The position numbers and the translations under genes were made by a program. From positions 1 through 43,132 of the forward strand of contig NZ_JACSUD010000018.1 of NCBI RefSeq assembly GCF_014385435.1: 43,132 nucleotides of DNA, given 5' to 3'. The notes below the pieces were generated by a model. It saw only the letters and a program-made list of their open reading frames with translations, searched no databases and was not told the origin of the DNA. Source of the stretch: Alloprevotella sp. Lung230 (GTDB lineage Bacteria > Bacteroidota > Bacteroidia > Bacteroidales > Bacteroidaceae). Of this stretch, positions 1 to 33,591 are shown piece after piece; the stretch's first letter is position 1, and each line of letters opens with the position of its first letter.

Positions 1-106
1 CATCTCGACGTCGGATTTGACCACAGAGTTCCGATTTTAACTTGACTTTAACATTTCCGACAGTGGAAGTGTGCGGCGGCCGATTTCTTCATTGCCGCAT
101 CCATCT

Positions 107-235: not shown

Positions 236-495
236 CCTCGCGCGCGTATACTACAAGCACAATGATGTTTTTTACCTTCACCTCCTTCACCCGAGGTTTG
301 TAAGGCTTTTGTTTTCAGAGGGTTATGCGAATTGATAAAAGGTACTTCCTCTAAGCCGGATGAAGGAAGAGGGTGAAGGATGGAAAAACAAAAATCCTTC
401 ACCCGAAAGTCGCTGAAAAATAACCAGTTAAGCAGTCGGGTGAAGGATTGAAGGATAAAAACTGTTTTAATAGAGGGTAACGCGCACGCGTGAGG
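236..495. repeat. Inverted-repeat-bounded dispersed element, copy 1
   Basis: A 260-bp non-coding unit. Its left end reads CCTCGCGCGCGTATAC and its right end is the near inverse (GTAACGCGCACGCGTGAGG). The interior carries several CCTTCACC or GGTGAAGG motifs: paired CCTTCAC copies near 277-292 and inverted copies near 371-382, 395-404 and 438-450. The element at 23984-24188 has the same ends, the same TTTTTT-CCTTCAC start and the same GGTGAAGGA-TGAAGG finish. No ORF of substance is present. It could be a MITE-like mobile element or a structured chromosomal repeat. Confidence 0.55.
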
Positions 496-3704: not shown

Positions 3705-5978
3705 TTATCGTTTCAAGATGCGCTGTCTGTGTGAGCGTCCGTTGTTGCCAATTTCAACGATGTAGACGCCCGGTGCGAGGTCGAGGAGAGAGAGAGAAAG
3801 TGCGTTTTCTGCACCGACTGAACGATGTTTAAGTAAACGACCATTCAAATCGAAGAGTTTAATCCATTGGAGATTGTGAGCACGCACCATTAAGTTATTT
3901 CCATGTTGAGCAATTTTCGCGGAAGATTTGGCTGTATCCTCTATCCCCGTGACTTGAGAGGATATCATAAAGATAGTTTCCTCCTTCGCGTTTACTTTTT
4001 CCACATGATGCTGAGAGGCTTCCGGATCATCAATATTCGTACCATCGTCTTGAATGAGAATCAATTTGACTTGGTAACTTCCCTCAGTAAAGGATTCGGG
4101 AATGCTGATGGTAAAAGGCAGAAGGGTAGTGTCAAACCCCGGAAAATCGGTCTTTTCTTCTTTGCGAATTTCGTGAGCTACGTTGCCTGCTTCGTCTAAC
4201 AATTGGAGTTTGGCATAGCAGGTGCGCTCCAAACCTCCTTTGTTCCTTATAGAGAAGACAACTTTTTCTTCACTTCCGGGAGTGAAACGAGTGACGATGG
4301 GATGGCTTAATAATTGAAAACCTGCCTTGAAATAGCCTTCTTCCGTGACACGTATAATACCTTTATTCAGTTCTATGACCATGCGCGGGGCGAGCTTCAT
4401 ACGTACCCAGTCTCCCCAATCTCCATCTGCTTTCTTAGGGGCACAGATGGGGAGAAGTTGATAGTAGCCGTCGGACAAACCATTCAAATCAATTTTGATT
4501 TTTTGCGGAGTGTTTATGAGATAATCACGATTCATTAAACCGTTATCATACAGCCCATACACTCGTTGCGTAAATCCACCTTTTTCGTAATCATCCGAAG
4601 GACAAATCTTTAAGCGTTGGCCATCCATATTGTAGACACCTACCCCGATATCTCCTCGGAAAGGATTTCCTTTGTTTACAAAATAGGCCATCTCAACTGG
4701 CGGCATCTCTGCCGCAGCAAAAGTCTTTTGGTGCCCTTCTGGGAGCGTGAGGGAGCCTTCGCCGTTAAATCTGAGTTTGGGGCTGTTGGGGAGTAATGAG
4801 GGGTCGATAGGTTTAACCCCCTCCTTGTTAGGATGGGCAAGGATGGCGGTGAGATCAATTTTGAAGGAAAGGGGGCGTCCTCCAAATTCGTTGCCGCTTT
4901 TCGCTACATCAGCAGCTGTGAGTGAGAAATAGCCATCGCTCTGTCCACCCCATCCGAAATTCATGTGGAACAATCCACGTTCATCAACGCCATCGGTGAC
5001 CCAAGCATGACCACCGGCACCTAATTTATAAAAACCGGCGAGGTAAACGGGAAATCCATTGAGCAACTCTTGTCGTACAATCTGAGTAAATCCGGAAGTC
5101 CCTTCATCGCTGCGTTTTACGAAAGCCGTAGTATAGTCAAAGTGGTTTTGGAAGGCGCGATCGGCATTTTCGTTCTGGGTACCGCTGGCATAAGGAGTAT
5201 ATTGCATATTTGTGGCTACCCCCACATCGTGCATCAAGAGTGCAACAGCATTTGCTTCATCATCTGTCCAAGGGTAAGCATAGGAATATCGGTCTTTCAT
5301 ATGCTCCCAATCGTAATGCGACTTACTGAAATCGGTGTGCTTCTGTTGCTGATAATAAGTGATGGTGTAGGTGTTTTCTCCCTTTCCTTGTGCCGGCCAC
5401 TTGTGGAAATACATCATTTGTGCCATTGCCGTGGCCACGCATCCCGTGTAATCATAACCGATTTGTTTATTGTAAGGGGAGTCTTGGCTCCATTTGCAGG
5501 ACAACAGCGGAGCAACGGCTTTGTAAGTTTCCGTAGTTCGTGTTGCAGGCTGCATCTGTGTCGCCGTCTGCTGTAATTGGGCAAAACTTTCGCGATAGGT
5601 TTGCAGTAGAAATTTGATGCCGGGATGAGCGTTCAGCGTGTCTAAGGCGCCTGAATCGCTGTAAGCCAATACTTCGCCCAGGGCATCATCACCTGAAACC
5701 ACGACGAAACCTCTGCCTTTCTCGTCATTGAACACATAGAAAGGTTCTACGGAGTTTTTCTTAGGAAGACGTGATTGTGCTCCAAGCGTCAAACGGCGAT
5801 TGGAAGAAGTGATGACGTACTTTTTGGCAATGCTGAATGCCTCTTGCCTCGTCACGCGCTTGGCGGTGAGAGGAAGAATGATGGATAAACTGAAAATAAA
5901 AAGGGTCAGAGGACGTAAGAAGGAGCGCGTCAAACGACTGCACCCCCTACATTCGTAGGAGTTGTTCTGTTTCTTCAT
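3705..5978 (-). CDS. C10-family (streptopain/interpain-like) secreted cysteine protease
   Basis: 757 aa. A hydrophobic signal segment lies at residues 21-40. An inhibitory Spi-type prodomain (residues about 41-155) begins RVTRQEAFSIAKKYV. The peptidase domain has the catalytic cysteine in YDYTGCVATAMAQMM (Cys180) and the catalytic histidine in GGHAWVTDG (His324), followed by the conserved NFGWGG (340-345). Beta-rich regions follow. The last 75 or so residues (WIKLFDLNGRLLKHRS...GVYIVEIGNNGRSHRQRILKR) look like a type A T9SS sorting domain. Family knowledge (SpeB, Prevotella interpain A, Porphyromonas PrtT) indicates a secreted endopeptidase activated by prodomain removal. It is monocistronic, with a -7 box at 6151-6158. 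Confidence 0.9.
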   Translation of the reverse strand: MKKQNNSYECRGCSRLTRSFLRPLTLFIFSLSIILPLTAKRVTRQEAFSIAKKYVITSSNRRLTLGAQSRLPKKNSVEPFYVFNDEKGRGFVVVSGDDALGEVLAYSDSGALDTLNAHPGIKFLLQTYRESFAQLQQTATQMQPATRTTETYKAVAPLLSCKWSQDSPYNKQIGYDYTGCVATAMAQMMYFHKWPAQGKGENTYTITYYQQQKHTDFSKSHYDWEHMKDRYSYAYPWTDDEANAVALLMHDVGVATNMQYTPYASGTQNENADRAFQNHFDYTTAFVKRSDEGTSGFTQIVRQELLNGFPVYLAGFYKLGAGGHAWVTDGVDERGLFHMNFGWGGQSDGYFSLTAADVAKSGNEFGGRPLSFKIDLTAILAHPNKEGVKPIDPSLLPNSPKLRFNGEGSLTLPEGHQKTFAAAEMPPVEMAYFVNKGNPFRGDIGVGVYNMDGQRLKICPSDDYEKGGFTQRVYGLYDNGLMNRDYLINTPQKIKIDLNGLSDGYYQLLPICAPKKADGDWGDWVRMKLAPRMVIELNKGIIRVTEEGYFKAGFQLLSHPIVTRFTPGSEEKVVFSIRNKGGLERTCYAKLQLLDEAGNVAHEIRKEEKTDFPGFDTTLLPFTISIPESFTEGSYQVKLILIQDDGTNIDDPEASQHHVEKVNAKEETIFMISSQVTGIEDTAKSSAKIAQHGNNLMVRAHNLQWIKLFDLNGRLLKHRSVGAENALSLSLLDLAPGVYIVEIGNNGRSHRQRILKR

Positions 5979-23779: not shown

Positions 23780-23863
23780 ACTTCCGAGGTCGTTTGATTT
23801 ACCTCAGAGATAATTTGATTTACCTCAGAGGAAGAAAAAACTACCTCTGAGGTAGATGAGATG
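23780..23863. repeat. 21-bp-periodic palindromic array 2 (4 units)
   Basis: Units start at 23780, 23801, 23822 and 23843, exactly 21 bp apart. Cores are ACTTCCGAGGT, ACCTCAGAGAT, ACCTCAGAGGA and ACCTCTGAGGT, with spacers such as TTTGATTT (twice) and GAAAAAACT. The GAAAAAACT spacer also occurs in array 3 and nearly in array 1. The array lies between the IS relic and the 3' end of tamL. Confidence 0.85.
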
Positions 23864-23983: not shown

Positions 23984-24188
23984 CCTCGCGCGCGTGTGCG
24001 TACGCGCATACACTATAATAGTGTTGTTTTTTGCCTTCACTGCCTTCACCCTCGCCATCATTTCTGTCCTTTGCTTTCACCTTTGCCTTCACCCCTATGT
24101 TCTTGATTTTCAGGTTCTCTCCCCTATCGGTGAAGGAGTGAAGGCAATTTGCAAGCACTATATGTAGTGTATACGCACGCGCGAGAGG
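23984..24188. repeat. Inverted-repeat-bounded dispersed element, copy 2
   Basis: 205 bp. The left end CCTCGCGCGCGTGTGCGTAC is mirrored by the right end GTATACGCACGCGCGAGAGG. An inner pair has CACTATA on the left and the related TATGTAGTG on the right. The interior carries CCTTCAC motifs near the left (GCCTTCACTGCCTTCACCC) and GGTGAAGGAGTGAAGGC near the right, so the unit is nearly symmetric. It ends 14 bp before the tamL stop. Same family as 236-495. Confidence 0.65.
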
Positions 24189-33460: not shown

Positions 33461-33528
33461 GACGAAAATAAGGAGGAAAACACCTTCTGTGGGAAGGCCT
33501 CAAAAAAAGATAGGAGATAGAAAAATTT

Positions 33529-33591
33529 ACCTCAGAGGTAATTTTTTTTATCTCTGAGGTAGAAAAAACTATCTCTGAGGTAAATTCAACT
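33529..33591. repeat. 21-bp-periodic palindromic array 3 (3 units, best conserved)
   Basis: Units start at 33529, 33550 and 33571, exactly 21 bp apart. Cores are ACCTCAGAGGT, ATCTCTGAGGT and ATCTCTGAGGT. The outer flanks make a perfect 14-bp inverted repeat (AATTTACCTCAGAG at 33524-33537, complement at 33573-33586), so the whole array is a dyad. A degenerate fourth unit may start at 33508. It sits between the divergently placed end of cvfB and the start of the DUF1934-like gene. Confidence 0.88.

Follow-up and report, generated by a model that had tools for sequence, protein, structure and literature searches.

The window, by which we mean the whole stretch of 43,132 nt that was analyzed, contains three short arrays in which an 11-bp palindromic word recurs every 21 bp, and the question raised by this locus is whether such arrays are phased sites for a DNA-binding protein, the repeat cores of a mobile element, or structures that act as RNA. 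The features are as follows, where L and R denote repeat modules on the two sides of an array:

Positions 1 to 53, forward strand: L module beside array 1, CATCTCG ... TTTAACTTGACTTTAACA, truncated by the window start and recognized by eye against recurrent L-module k-mers
Positions 107 to 159, no strand: array 1, 3 units, ACCTCAGACGT at 107-117, ATCTCTGATCT at 128-138 and ACCTCTGAGTT at 149-159
Positions 237 to 297, forward strand: start of the R module beside array 1, a shared repeat with a CGCG tract, TTTTTT and CCTTCAC words
Positions 23780 to 23853, no strand: array 2, 4 units starting at 23780, 23801, 23822 and 23843
Positions 23985 to 24186, forward strand: R module beside array 2, CTCGCGCGCG...TTTTTTGCCTTCACTGCCTTCACC ... 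GGTGAAGGAGTGAAGGC...ACGCGCGAG, with inverted ends and borders set by eye
Positions 33508 to 33518, no strand: decayed outer unit AGATAGGAGAT, in phase with array 3
Positions 33529 to 33581, no strand: array 3, 3 units, ACCTCAGAGGT at 33529 and ATCTCTGAGGT at both 33550 and 33571

The three arrays lie where an earlier note on this DNA had placed them, with 3, 4 and 3 units and with every step equal to 21 bp. The order of A-centered units on the left and T-centered units on the right was also correct for these arrays, and by eye array 3 does have its 14-bp perfect outer inverted repeat (AATTTACCTCAGAG). The word proposed for the units, ACCTCWGAGGT, is exact in two of the ten (23843 and 33529) and carries 1–3 changes in the other eight, and the unit at 23780 is C-centered, contrary to the description of every unit as W-centered. 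A terminator-like T7 run follows array 1. On the R side of this array, which was classed as intermediate, an arm match with 3 mismatches was found at position 268, and more CCTTCACC/GGTGAAGG words continue to about position 450; a search for R-module arms around array 3 found none. Rfam covariance models compared with the window and nine loci yielded four tRNA matches and nothing else. The window also contains matches to T9SS and TamL, consistent with Bacteroidota.

We searched the genome to which the window belongs (G000; 2.49 Mb in 31 contigs) for pairs of AYCTCWGAGRT at 21 bp, allowing at most 3 mismatches, and found 222 pairs, compared with 0 for the reversed pattern. A 388-kb sample, consisting of the whole contigs C3 and C4 together with the window, contained 27 arrays and 64 of the 222 pairs, every pair lying beside an array. 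Spacing played no part in the choice of this sample, but its array density is not a fair estimate, since C3 and C4 were chosen after arrays had already been seen there and the window was chosen by the finding itself. We therefore dropped scaling by length, by which the 27 arrays of the 388-kb sample would extrapolate to 173 in the genome, and estimated the total from the pairs (222 pairs at 64 pairs per 27 arrays, or 2.4 pairs each), which gives about 94 arrays. The full ACCTCWGAGGT word occurred 21 times in arrays or within 25 bp of one and once elsewhere in the 388 kb. A further 57 stretches were taken around listed arrays, and together with the sample they provided 84 arrays that passed a filter. 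It required at least 2 units spaced 21 or 42 bp apart; no unit was allowed more than 2 mismatches (or more than 1 where a unit had been skipped), one or more units had to have no more than 1, and the mean could not exceed 1.6. Of the 84 arrays, 47 span 3 unit places, 24 span 4, 9 span 2, 3 span 5 and one spans 6. The arrays of the window are members of a dispersed family: they are not confined to three loci, and the 21-bp pitch is kept genome-wide.

The regularity of the pitch was assessed from exact CTCWGAG cores lying at most 66 bp apart. In the 388-kb sample, all 64 pairs were at 21 bp (37 pairs), 42 bp (22 pairs) or 63 bp (5 pairs). The targeted stretches gave 91, 48 and 10 pairs at these distances and none at any other; because they had been picked by phased patterns or by similarity to arrays, only the 388-kb set tests the pitch fairly. 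When 80 kb of sampled intergenic DNA was scanned for repeat distances, a lag of 21 bp was found in 11 loci, compared with 0–3 loci for each other lag from 13 to 44, and with about 94 loci built on the same plan, 21 bp is the commonest tandem distance in this intergenic DNA. The 183 spacers comprised 105 distinct sequences with 79% A/T, and those within one junction type differed on average at 3.8–4.6 of 10 positions, yet we observed zero spacer indels between exact cores in G000. Spacer length is thus fixed, whereas spacer sequence is free. A pitch of two helical turns places sites on one face of the DNA, and these arrays combine a symmetric site with such fixed helical phasing. Contig C4 also carries a second family with a 21-bp pitch, built on a AAACCAASSTTGGTTT-like palindrome (C4:34928-35010, 76510-76595 and 145035-145120), and palindrome-rich arrays with a pitch of 22–23 bp (C4:29709-29812 and C4:162696-162765), so that this genome has arrays of about two turns in four or more spellings.

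Within the unit, four positions were nearly constant among 276 units (T4 in 274, C5 in 273, G7 in 273 and A8 in 275), followed by G9 (262/276) and C3 (252/276), with C or T at position 2 in 235 and G or A at position 10 in 254, although these figures are inflated by the admission of units with at most 2 mismatches. The combinations of half-sites were C2/G10 in 97 units, C2/A10 in 47, T2/G10 in 59 and T2/A10 in 11; one weak half per unit is common and two are rare, a modest within-unit association (Fisher's test, P = 0.009). This association was not created by the filter, since the filter accepts both letters at positions 2 and 10, and at least one strong half-site per unit is usually kept. The outer units were centered A..T in 59 of the 84 arrays, T..A in 5, A..A in 6 and T..T in 8, with another center in 6. 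One further step in phase beyond the arrays, matches to the core averaged 3.21 of 7, compared with an off-phase mean of 1.98 (SD 0.18, maximum 2.65), and this resemblance faded to 2.28 of 7 at 42 bp; the decayed unit beside array 3 is a case of this general in-phase decay at –21. Beyond it, the 74 ends of arrays outside the R-module class had no further conserved edge.

To place the arrays among genes, we used a purpose-built simple codon-usage caller with no ribosome-site model. Among the 84 arrays, 68 lay between two predicted genes, 3 overlapped a prediction and 13 were at stretch edges. The 68 intergenic arrays lay in 23 --, 19 ++, 15 convergent and 11 divergent gaps, and the 161 background gaps of at least 90 bp were 51 --, 51 ++, 28 convergent and 31 divergent. 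The mapping against gene starts that the earlier note had proposed accordingly gave no clear overall orientation preference and none for gene starts.

We further analyzed the relatives. A first scan of 80 genomes (48 of them from the genus), with at most 1 mismatch, picked up G030 together with a single pair in G033 that later proved to be part of an array. When up to 3 mismatches were allowed in 58 genomes of the genus, 17 matched, including G000 with its 222 pairs; the counts were 68 in G101, 26 in G043, 16 in G046, 11 in G022, 8 in G030, 6 each in G033 and G105, 4 in G018, 3 in G013 and 1–2 in each of seven more genomes, while the reversed pattern matched once in each of seven genomes. Absence from relatives, which the earlier note had considered, therefore does not apply to some congeners, although 41 of the 58 genomes had zero matches to the G000 word. 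Among those 41 are G004, G038 and G041, which are 99% complete, but arrays spelled in another dialect would escape this pattern. Example loci were examined in G101, G043, G022, G033, G030 and G013, whereas G046, G105 and G018 are represented by their counts alone. In G043, 38 of 38 core pairs of the word ATCTC[GC]GAGA lay at 21, 42 or 63 bp (12 loci, selected by a 21-bp pattern). The word of G101 is close to that of G000, and 16 of 16 core pairs lay at 21 or 42 bp (9 loci), while scattered other distances appeared, once each, when the core was loosened to CTNNNAG. In G022, 14 loci found by similarity carry the word A[TC]CTTTGAA, which has lost the perfect palindrome, with 15 steps of 21 bp and one of 22 bp, and the inverted word gave 9 steps of 21 bp. 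G013 has AGCTC[CG]GAGCT in part, with one step of 23 bp. G030 contains a related element, and about 10 of its listed copies have near-complementary, non-palindromic words 1 and 3, while four have CTCWGAG words.

At the array 3 locus itself, no orthologous array was recognized in about 760 bp from each of 19 relatives, and the array is absent from the best-matching relative. Other repeats of 21–22 bp occur there in three relatives (L186, L187 and L191), with a weaker one in a fourth (L188). In the first three, TCACAGAACTTATATAGAGATGAAAAAACTA stands next to a hairpin, after the ortholog of the gene neighboring array 3. These comparisons of sequence suggest that in some congeners the 21-bp pitch is mostly kept while the word differs, as if each species had its own dialect, and that the site and its putative reader probably drifted together between species.

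Beyond the genus, the idea that the same word is widespread in Bacteroidota was unsupported (12 of 394 other genomes, compared with 8 of 394 for the reversed control). A scan of GTDB, in which the G000 word was preselected, gave 22 stretches, several of which are 21-bp tandem arrays with different spacers. Four of these loci (L057, L062, L064 and L067), from a Spirochaetes MAG, Pedobacter soli, Fortiea and Nostoc, are long tandem arrays at 21 bp in which the word is the same but the spacers differ; the Spirochaetes and Pedobacter arrays share the variant ACCTCCGGGGT, and the Pedobacter stretch falls within an open frame. We regard such cross-phylum look-alikes as weak. Dispersed arrays, mostly with a 21-bp pitch, were seen in two Prolixibacteraceae (G100 and G083; L227-L232) and in Taibaiella soli (G084; L234-L238), where the 11-mers have CTnnnAG cores, partly complementary neighbors (ACCTAAAAGGT/ACCTTTTAGGT) and spacers such as ACCCCCTACC or GAAACATTGC, and where one Taibaiella locus (L238) repeats better at 20 bp than at 21 bp. 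Their relationship to the G000 family is interesting but unproven. A viral match (L226, an IMG/VR contig) was a false lead, since it is a coding repeat: its ORF at 4646-5362 contains about 28 seven-residue repeats, the DNA of which mimics an array. Three control palindromes had 0 matches to viral sequences. A coding origin, in which 21 bp would be seven codons and the T-centered unit could be read as TSEVEKT, was rejected for G000 because its arrays have mixed orientations and most of them are found between predicted genes.

Fixed-length spacers of free sequence, a symmetric core, the retention of a strong half-site, decay in phase and the drift of spelling at a constant pitch are all predicted for the phased sites of a dimer. 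We accordingly favor, with a probability of roughly one half, the reading that the arrays are phased sites for a putative dimeric DNA-binding protein, located in part within mobile-like intergenic elements. Of the dimeric protein proposed by the earlier note, the pitch, the symmetric core, the strong half-site and the lack of pairing covariation (see below) speak in favor, while binding itself and its cooperativity are what we infer. Dimers would occupy adjacent sites on one face of the helix in a cooperative manner, and the A/T-rich spacers might bend the DNA under them. Such a protein could have a local role in regulation or silencing, or could be a dispersed protein of the nucleoid type, and at about half of the loci the cluster would have spread inside a composite intergenic element comprising the R module and often the L module. 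However, a constant pitch could come from one ancestral element, and a symmetric dimer leaves the A-T polarity of the outer units unexplained. The departures from the pitch in G013, G022, G101 and L238, the lack of a preference for gene starts, the modest size of the within-unit association, the second repeat beside 47 of the 84 arrays and the lack of an ortholog of array 3 also count against binding.

A broader version of the binding-site reading is that the whole genus uses a code, in which each species has its own 11-bp dialect at a 21-bp pitch in tens to about 100 intergenic loci, read by a fast co-evolving, undescribed dimeric protein that organizes the chromosome or silences DNA and travels with, or tames, the composites. 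We consider this version doubtful. The rule of an 11-bp word and a 10-bp spacer may reach other Bacteroidota, e.g. Taibaiella and Prolixibacteraceae. If a protein does read the arrays, a large genus of Bacteroidales would have a global DNA-binding factor, with dialects that amount to a natural experiment in which a binding specificity and dozens of sites changed together; the plan survives between species although its spelling changes.

The most serious rival to the binding-site reading is that the arrays belong to a non-coding element that is or was mobile, a MITE with a minisatellite core and a transposase acting in trans, whose pitch was simply inherited with no need for a binder. This rival is serious because 47 of the 84 arrays are part of composite dispersed elements, which the earlier note had overlooked. 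In an all-against-all comparison, a second repeat, the R module, adjoined 47 arrays and was lacking at 19, and the 18 intermediate arrays were excluded from the class counts; in the 388-kb sample, it was present at 9 and absent at 9 of the 27 arrays. In this module of about 250 bp, a CG-alternating tract precedes TTTTTTGCCTTCACTGCCTTCACC, and the far end carries an inverted copy. All 13 R-module arms of the sample lay within 300 bp of an array, while contig C3 has 15 arrays and zero arms. On the opposite side, the L module is marked by the words TATAGACATCTCG and TTTAACACGACTTTAACA; of the 38 R-module arrays with predicted genes on both sides, 18 had its motif. Further points in favor of this rival are the related element of G030 (25 match rows on 21 contigs, with 68–100% identity over the matched parts and shared flanks), a 96% copy of array 3 over 77 bp on contig C11 of the same genome, and a member of the second 21-bp family, at C4:76460-76640, which by eye is enclosed by 27-bp inverted repeats (one mismatch). 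The arrays of G101 and G022 are also followed by CG-tract composites with partly R-like words. Within the R module (e.g. 23985-24186 of the window), GCCTTCAC words recur at 9-bp steps, and the same place is taken by GGTTCAC/GTGAACC in G022 and by GCTTCCGCTGCCTTCGC in G101, indicating that the R words also vary by species.

An origin as a MITE with a minisatellite accounts for the composites and for G030 better than binding sites do. Arrays outside the R class, however, lack conserved ends and have merely a decaying in-phase site, spacers that differ at about 4 of 10 positions have nevertheless kept their length between exact cores, and the pitch is mostly constant while words vary by species. 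We judge an inherited pitch with no binder to be possible but not probable. The two readings can be compatible, with a mobile-type element whose repeat core is, or became, a cluster of binding sites; if the arrays are element cores instead, they would represent an unusually clean mobile-type minisatellite in exact helical register.

A second rival is that adjacent or outer units form RNA hairpins that end or stabilize transcripts, in the manner of a terminator or a REP-like element. The three arrays of the window gave folding z-scores of –2.6 to –7.7 on both strands, although good folding is expected of palindrome arrays. Of 168 array sides, 12 had a T-run immediately beyond the outer core, compared with 24 of 1008 control positions, and the R-module arrays leaned by raw counts toward convergent gaps (13 convergent and 3 divergent among 38, compared with 28 and 31 of the 161 background gaps). 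Pairing between spacers pointed the other way. In the 47 three-unit arrays, spacer 1 agreed with the reverse-complemented last spacer at 5.83 of 10 positions, compared with 6.26 in shuffled sets (1983 out of 2000 shuffles reached the observed value), and 72 AT-junction spacers were less self-complementary (4.14) than spacers compared between arrays (5.63). Positions 2 and 10 were complementary in 109 of 276 units, compared with 128.5 expected from independent columns, and weak half-sites rarely coincided (T2/A10 in 11), whereas RNA pairing would favor T-A. This lack of covariation in spacers and half-sites argues against a selected hairpin and led us to reject the long hairpins that folding had suggested; long perfect palindromes even seem to be avoided in the arrays. 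In addition, AT and TA neighbor orders pair equally well and yet number 72 and 16, and a fixed 10-nt spacer is unnecessary for a hairpin. The layout of an intrinsic terminator, a hairpin and then a T-run, was found in 11 of the 84 arrays alone, and the T-run was absent at 73. A minority of arrays may act as terminators, but an RNA role for the family is unlikely.

A third rival, that the arrays are read by the genome's RAYT (a Y1 transposase) as REP/BIME elements are, was rejected as highly improbable, since the single Y1_Tnp match (C3:119869-120216), although the arrays are dispersed, intergenic and inverted, is flanked by other palindromes, CCCCGAAGGGG and CCGTAGG...CCTACGG, and lies about 3.2 kb from the nearest 21-bp array. 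The region C3:119279-121300, with one RAYT-like gene among many copies of CCCCGAAGGGG and CCGTAGG/CCTACGG, appears to be a separate REP-type system.

Finally, we compared the arrays with known systems. Among the titles listed by literature searches, none described such phased palindrome arrays, and four papers retrieved by sequence terms were unrelated as judged by the title and the start of the abstract. REP/BIME elements associated with RAYT are dispersed intergenic palindromes in inverted arrangement, as are the arrays here, but the RAYT of this genome lies among different palindromes. Uptake sequences (DUS/USS) are single, often within genes, and consist of an abundant word with changes of a few letters between relatives. 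The arrays share the abundant word and its species variants, whereas 21 of the 22 full words in the 388 kb lay in or beside phased arrays; without scattered singles, an uptake sequence was rejected. The parS/centromere and iteron arrays are phased repeats of a dimer site at one or few sites per replicon. Phased repeats of a presumed dimer site are found here too, but at about 94 loci, and the parS-like role suggested by the earlier note is unlikely because there are about a hundred dispersed copies.

The closest resemblance is to repeat-bearing elements of Porphyromonas gingivalis. In the published account of these elements, BrickBuilt is a 23-nt minisatellite within a MITE, with 19 copies in ATCC 33277, up to 22.8 units and 12-bp IS5-type inverted ends, PgRS/MITE464 has 41-nt repeats, and such MITE types have about 10–20 copies (PMC4596501). 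The arrays resemble BrickBuilt in being dispersed intergenic short tandem units of about two turns with variable copy number, in having possible leader- and tail-like modules at many, though not all, of the copies, and in their restriction to a species group. They differ in their number (about 94 arrays), most frequent size (3 units), palindromic word and variable spacers, and 19 of the 84 arrays have no flanking repeat by the cut-off used; the 21-bp unit sets them apart from the 23-nt unit by length, not by sequence. With PgRS/MITE464, as described there, they share the plan of a MITE-like element with a tandem array, but not its 41-nt unit. The composites of R and L modules around the arrays thus resemble the leader-repeat-tail elements BrickBuilt and PgRS.
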